In this document: positions 51,085-52,134 of the stretch, in pieces | Numbering within the stretch: the stretch's first letter is position 1 | How the letters are laid out: every line of letters starts with the position of its first letter | Source: an uncultured Dehalococcoidia bacterium | GTDB lineage: Bacteria; Chloroflexota; Dehalococcoidia; Lucifugimonadales; GCA-2712585 | Assembly: GCA_951812825.1 (NCBI GenBank) | Contig: OX638324.1 | Coordinates: 1,363,141-1,427,140 of the forward strand | Direction: 5' to 3' | DNA: 64,000 bases | The notes under the pieces: generated by a model | Told to the model about the DNA's origin: nothing | Databases searched by the model: none | What the model saw: the letters and a program-made list of their open reading frames with translations, nothing else | Position numbers and translations under genes: made by a program

Positions 51085-51115
51085 CAGAAGGCCCCTCACA
51101 TTGAGGGGCCTTCTG
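51085..51115 (-). terminator. Terminator after the SelW-like gene
   Basis: Perfect 14-bp stem CAGAAGGCCCCTCA/TGAGGGGCCTTCTG with a 3-nt loop; on the minus strand it is followed by TTTT. Confidence 0.75.
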
Positions 51116-51134: not shown

Positions 51135-51410
51135 CTAGGCGGCGGCTACCCCTAGGGAGTCCACCTTCGCCTGAATTACGTCGCGAAGCTCCTTCACTCT
51201 GGTGAGGTCAGGGTACTTGCCGTCTTCTTCCGACCTGTCGAAGATCTTTTCGCCGTCCAGATAGACCTCCAGGCGGCCGTTGGCCCCGGGGGTCAGTGAG
51301 ATGCCGGCGTCGGCTCCGAAGTATCGGTAGAACTCATTCGCCATCCACGTGGCGGTCGCGTGGTACTGTCAAGGTACGCAATAGACAATGTCAATATTAA
51401 CTTTCCACAT
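51135..51410 (-). CDS. SelW-like (Rdx family) selenoprotein with in-frame UGA
   Basis: The ORF below 51344 is only a fragment; reading through a TGA at 51369-51371 joins it to an upstream start at 51410, giving 91 codons: MWKVNIDIVYCVPU then QYHATATWMANEFYRYFG. The CVPU motif is the CxxU redox site of Rdx/SelW proteins (Cys11, Sec14), followed by LEVYLDGEKIFDR, a standard Rdx segment. GAGGGG precedes ATG 51410. A candidate bSECIS hairpin lies 19-25 nt after the UGA. SelW-like proteins are small thiol-redox factors. Sec insertion genes are not in this window. Confidence 0.8.
51339..51371 (-). promoter_or_regulatory. UGA codon with candidate bacterial SECIS hairpin
   Basis: After UGA (51371-51369), stem CGCCA/TGGCG (51354-51350 with 51343-51339) encloses the six-base loop CGTGGA, which starts 20 nt from the UGA and has the expected G residues. 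Fold not computed. Confidence 0.55.
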
Positions 51411-51591
51411 AGCAAGTCCCCTCTAAGCTAGGTTTCCGGGCTTTGCCAGCACCGGTTCCCTACAGTTTAGCGTGTCATCCGTCTGTGTCAAGGGAGTGAG
51501 GACGCCAAATTTAACAAACTCCGCTTGACACTCCCGTGCCTTGGGGGTAGCATCGGCCACGCCCCCAACCAACCAGCATTGAGCAGGGAAA

Positions 51592-52134
51592 ATGACAACG
51601 ACAGGCGCGCAAAGGACCAACTGGCCGGAACGGCTGCGGGAGATCAGCCAATACGTAAACCTGACCGAGGAAGACCGCAAGCTGATACGGTCCACCGGCC
51701 CCATAGTACGCCGTTATGCCGACCAGTTGACCACCGAAGTCTACGACCTCATCTTCGAATTTCCCAACGCAGGCCGGTTCTTCTCCTACGACGACGGTAC
51801 CCCCGACCCAAAGCGCGTGAAGGACAACAAGGACTCCATGATGCAGTGGCTGAATTATCTGGCCCAGGCCCCCTCCAACGACGCCTTTGCCCGCTACATG
51901 ATAGCGATAAGCGCCATGCATCGGGACATCCCCATACACCGCCCCGGTCTGCCCCCGGTGCCCTCCCAGTTCGTCATCGGCACCATCTCCTGGTACCAGA
52001 CCCGGCTGATTCAGATCTTTGAGGATGAGCTGGGCGACTTGCGGAAGGCGGCAGAAGCAAGCACAGCCTGGAACAAGATGCTCATGGTCTCCCTGGACAT
52101 CCTCCTCGGCGCCTACCTCCTCGACTCCCGATAG
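51592..52134 (+). CDS. Protoglobin-family globin
   Basis: 180 residues. Helical sequence ISQYVNLTEEDRKLIRSTGPIVRRYADQLTTEVYD, the YLAQ...DAFARYM region and the heme-contact AMHRDIPIHRPGLPP, with His110 the likely proximal ligand. The family is single-domain; no kinase or cyclase domain is attached. Protoglobins bind O2, CO or NO and are usually suggested to sense or detoxify gases. It stands alone, 180 bases after the SelW-like gene in divergent orientation. Confidence 0.85.
   Translation: MTTTGAQRTNWPERLREISQYVNLTEEDRKLIRSTGPIVRRYADQLTTEVYDLIFEFPNAGRFFSYDDGTPDPKRVKDNKDSMMQWLNYLAQAPSNDAFARYMIAISAMHRDIPIHRPGLPPVPSQFVIGTISWYQTRLIQIFEDELGDLRKAAEASTAWNKMLMVSLDILLGAYLLDSR

Follow-up and report, generated by a model that had tools for sequence, protein, structure and literature searches.

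The question raised by this locus is whether an in-frame TGA on the minus strand of the window (the whole stretch of 64,000 nucleotides from an uncultured Dehalococcoidia bacterium that was analysed) ends a short protein or encodes a selenocysteine within a longer one. With the standard code, just a 69-amino-acid open reading frame starting at 51344 is visible at this locus. Translation of the minus-strand frame 51410–51135 through its one TGA (51371–51369) gives 91 codons followed by a TAG stop and, with the TGA written as U, the product MWKVNIDIVYCVPUQYHATATWMANEFYRYFGADAGISLTPGANGRLEVYLDGEKIFDRSEEDGKYPDLTRVKELRDVIQAKVDSLGVAAA. The preliminary description had taken the shorter frame for a truncated Rdx protein and the longer one for its complete form, beginning at ATG 51410 behind a ribosome site and carrying the redox motif CVPU, and it is borne out on each of these points. 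Frame and coordinates are confirmed, the U of CVPU is the TGA at 51369–51371 (minus strand, predicted selenocysteine at residue 14), and a purine-rich box, AGAGGGG, which on reading of the sequence is the probable ribosome-binding site, lies at 51418–51424 on the minus strand, 7 nt 5' of the ATG. The gene at 51135–51410 is a real bacterial relative of selenoprotein W, whose internal UGA almost certainly inserts selenocysteine; its model is corrected here from one that standard translation would truncate.

The family assignment draws on both sequence profiles and predicted structure. The Pfam Rdx profile (PF10262) matches the read-through protein at 57.7 bits (E=1.3e-15, cut-off 22.6), with residues 5–75 placed on profile positions 1–71, against a weak 27.1 bits (E=4.8e-6) for the truncated 69-residue frame alone. 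The NCBIfam model TIGR02174 (CXXU_selWTH) also recognises the read-through, at 41.0 bits against a cut-off of 34.2, and the matches to both models cover the two sides of the TGA. An AlphaFold model of the read-through protein, built from 14 homologues, has a mean pLDDT of 93.8 and the thioredoxin-like fold of SelW, and a structural search with it returned 22 PDB matches at E<=0.001, every one of them from the SelW/Rdx family. Mouse SelW (2npb) is among these, with a TM-score of about 0.8 at 18% identity, such that the thioredoxin-like fold is common to the window protein and its eukaryotic counterpart. Eukaryotic SelW carries the CxxU motif; its SECIS element lies in the 3' UTR, in contrast to the hairpin of the window gene just past the UGA. 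By sequence, the PDB relatives are bacterial Rdx structures of the Cys form (2fa8, 2ojl, 2obk, 2oka, 2p0g, 3dex), which share the fold and about 27–39% identity over 73–86 columns; those of them aligned by sequence have CxxC, so that a Cys stands where the window gene has Sec.

A homologue of the gene is present in 75 of 98 related genomes, mostly with TGA at the same site and in a few cases with Cys. The named relatives are metagenome-assembled genomes (MAGs) and single cells of Dehalococcoidia, SAR202 or Chloroflexota, together with one MAG labelled Proteobacteria. In the 65 homologous genes that were examined in detail, a set which includes some near-identical pairs, the codon in question is TGA in 59 and TGC or TGT in six, in keeping with the expectation that position 14 should be either Sec or Cys. 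The motifs at this site are CVPU, CVSU, CVAU and CLGU and, in the Cys forms, CVPC, CLGC and CLPC. By a separate count, the TGA form occurs in 69 related genomes, 65 of which have a selA match above cut-off; the others are G006, G029 and G031, which are 70–81% complete, and G083, which has a selA fragment. Four genomes (G046, G033, G062 and G058) have TGA-free, Cys-type matches only, and selA above cut-off is absent from them. The same-genus genome G002 holds more distant copies only, the best at 46% identity. In one homologue (L056) a TAG at 1716–1718 ends the frame before the last helix; the in-frame residues that follow (LKEVIAKKLEGSP) still match the family, and the TAG is probably local to that genome.

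The host had been predicted to possess selA, selB, selC and selD, and indeed its 2.47-Mb genome contains selA (550 bits), selB (350 bits), selD (375 bits) and a tRNA-Sec with anticodon TCA (75.7 bits). The selD gene itself has an in-frame TGA at the usual catalytic site (NCAGUASK).

Comparison of hairpin registers among the homologues, together with bSECIS geometry, places a bSECIS-like hairpin at 51339–51354 on the minus strand, with a 5-bp stem (CGCCA/UGGCG, 51354–51350 paired with 51343–51339) and a 6-nt loop, CGUGGA (51349–51344), that has G at its second position. The hairpin spans +15 to +30 after the UGA, with the loop at +20 to +25 and 19 nt between UGA and loop. This meets the geometry published for bSECIS elements in PMC13188914, namely an apical loop of 3–9 nt with G in one of its first two positions, 16–37 nt after the UGA. 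The element had already been proposed as a hairpin with a 6-nt, G-containing loop 19–25 nt past the UGA, and its geometry, conservation and compensatory changes bear this out. In this one sequence it is not the minimum free energy fold, since it reaches −7.4 kcal/mol and a competing fold is slightly better at −8.5 kcal/mol. Moreover, when the sequence is folded by itself, stretches of 42 and 56 nt starting at the UGA show no significant stability (whole-region z-scores −0.32 and +0.32). The case for the hairpin is therefore one of phylogenetic comparison and not of thermodynamics.

In this regard, a hairpin with the loop G at +18 to +22 occurs in 54 of the 59 TGA genes, where 15.1 would be expected from synonymous codon shuffles that take their codon frequencies from these genes pooled together and are free of register-grouping bias; it occurs in two of the six Cys genes, both times in weak form. 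Two registers of the hairpin exist within the order. In the first (18 rows) the stem is 5 bp long and shows seven double-changed cells, while the second (21 rows) has a 4-bp stem, an invariant loop UGGAU and changes on both sides at all four pairs; none of 500 shuffles reaches the covariation score in either register, although the rows were grouped by register and the counts accordingly lean towards the structure. In the first group, the Thr ahead of Trp is encoded by ACG in each of the 17 rows that have it, and the Ala preceding this position by GCC in 20 of 20 rows, whereas other four-fold codons vary. The strict hairpin rule at the usual place is failed by five of the 59 TGA homologues. L079, L080 and L081 (UGA forms) and L050, whose hairpin carries an internal mismatch, are TGA homologues of this kind and may use a different hairpin geometry.

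Were the TGA instead a decayed or misassembled Cys codon, originally TGC or TGT, then either the 69-residue product or no product would be made. Homologues with CVPC do exist (L066, L071 and L074), and the 69-residue frame does retain its weak Rdx match. Set against this, the same codon is TGA in most homologues across the order in independent assemblies, from which a sequencing error is excluded; the frame is intact, with conserved residues on either side of the TGA, the hairpin region is under synonymous constraint and the genome holds the Sec machinery. The rise in Rdx score on read-through and the conservation of the TGA in dozens of independent genome assemblies are together more than chance, and an origin by decay or error is vanishingly unlikely.

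A different proposal, that TGA is reassigned throughout the genome, or read by a near-cognate tRNA, to give Trp, Gly or Cys in place of Sec, finds some encouragement in the stop codons of the window, since in DNA of 62% GC just 11 of 55 long, non-overlapping open reading frames end in TGA, against 26 in TAG and 18 in TAA. Those 11 frames nevertheless still end in TGA and prfB is present in the genome, such that genome-wide reassignment is rejected. Moreover, the in-frame TGAs examined all stand at catalytic Cys sites, and tRNA-Sec, selA, selB and selD are all present; we consider reading of the codon as Trp, Gly or Cys very improbable. TGA is the commonest of the stop trinucleotides overall in the window, yet open reading frames seem to avoid ending in it. 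When the window was searched for other genes interrupted by TGA, those candidates that were read were all antisense or composition artefacts.

We therefore hold, with a confidence just short of certainty, that the locus is monocistronic and encodes a small Rdx/SelW-family oxidoreductase with the thioredoxin fold, in which a SelB-dependent selenocysteine at residue 14 is part of the CVPU redox pair. During translation, SelB with Sec-tRNA(UCA) would bind the short hairpin just 3' of the UGA, and the selenocysteine put in at residue 14 would complete the Cys-x-x-Sec pair. By analogy with the family, the product is most likely a selenol/thiol redox protein that may form a selenenylsulfide between C11 and U14 and act in thiol redox control. 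The reading frame, homology, fold, conserved UGA/Cys site, hairpin with its compensatory changes and complete Sec machinery are observed, whereas insertion of Sec itself, the selenenylsulfide chemistry, the physiological role and the partner are inferred.

The family itself is not new, and the window gene adds a member to the long-known SelW-like CxxU group, listed as PF10262 CxxU in a 2026 review. SelW-like CxxU proteins are the most abundant family in marine selenoprotein surveys: the largest in the Sargasso Sea (PMC1088965) and present as 427 Sec and 56 Cys forms in GOS (PMC2398784), with further occurrences in Desulfotalea, Geobacter, Alkaliphilus, Desulfotomaculum and Symbiobacterium (PMC1794560). 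The bacterial SelW-like selenoproteins of these accounts (PF10262; PMC1088965, PMC1794560, PMC2398784, PMC13188914) share with the window protein the fold, the CxxU near the N-terminus and, after the Sec-UGA, a bSECIS whose small loop contains a G. The differences lie in the motif CVPU and the two hairpin registers within one order, and in the host, Dehalococcoidia/SAR202 being a group not named for the family in the portions of those accounts consulted.

Beyond the window, the genome has another SelW-like gene, with CHDU, and an AhpD/CMD gene with CRYU, and in five genes of the AhpC/TSA family the catalytic site holds TGA (TPGU, TGGU, WUGC, WUPAC and WUPKC). Counting SelD and the window gene, there are at least nine apparent selenoprotein genes, a lower bound from a partial census by a few family searches; a sixth AhpC/TSA match, with one TGA, comes in addition to this count. 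Eight genes outside the window (L095, L096, L098, L099, L100, L093, L010 and L070), comprising Prx-like TPGU and TGGU, three TlpA-like UxxC (two of which lie close together), AhpD-like CRYU, SelD and the second SelW-like gene, have the in-frame TGA at the catalytic Cys site and then a hairpin that agrees with a loosely defined bSECIS pattern, least well in L070. With PF07355 (GrdB/PrdB) the single match was weak and contained no TGA.

The Sec trait runs through the order. Selenoprotein-rich organisms have been taken as those with six or more, and Deltaproteobacteria, Clostridia and Synergistetes are named (PMC5029168). In the open-access literature, a search found no paper treating SAR202 together with selenoproteins, and none by title or abstract on a selenoproteome of Dehalococcoidia or Chloroflexota. 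It is an evenly balanced proposition that this marine Dehalococcoidia/SAR202 order is an undescribed selenoprotein-rich lineage outside the phyla so listed, with the Sec form of SelW ancestral and prevailing and some ten or more selenoproteins in genomes such as this one (SelD, a pair of SelW-like proteins, several of the Prx- and TlpA-like kinds and an AhpD-like one). The SelW-like Sec gene is widely used by marine Dehalococcoidia/SAR202, a use by lineage not found described in the open-access literature searched, and the gene ties the marine prokaryotic selenoprotein family of greatest abundance to an ocean lineage that is widespread and mostly uncultured. SAR202-type bacteria may account for part of the 'SelW-like' signal of ocean metagenomes and, if so, selenium would be a nutrient on which that lineage depends.

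As to its surroundings, the gene looks to be its own unit because a promoter-like site lies upstream and a terminator after the stop. The former is sigma-70-like, TTGACA-16 nt-TAAACT at 51464–51491 (minus strand), a consensus match at 10 of 12 positions and one of two such sites in the region, where 0.3 are expected; the latter, at 51085–51115 (minus strand), is an intrinsic terminator with an unusually long 14-bp stem and then TTTT (one found, shuffle mean 0.7). A protoglobin gene (Pfam Protoglobin, 8.2e-22) diverges from it at 51592–52134 on the plus strand, and this neighbour, conserved in close relatives, is a hint, but no proof, of common regulation related to redox or gas. None of the more distant relatives retrieved showed the divergent arrangement; the pair is kept in three genomes that belong to the same family (L039, L040/L022 and L042/L023).
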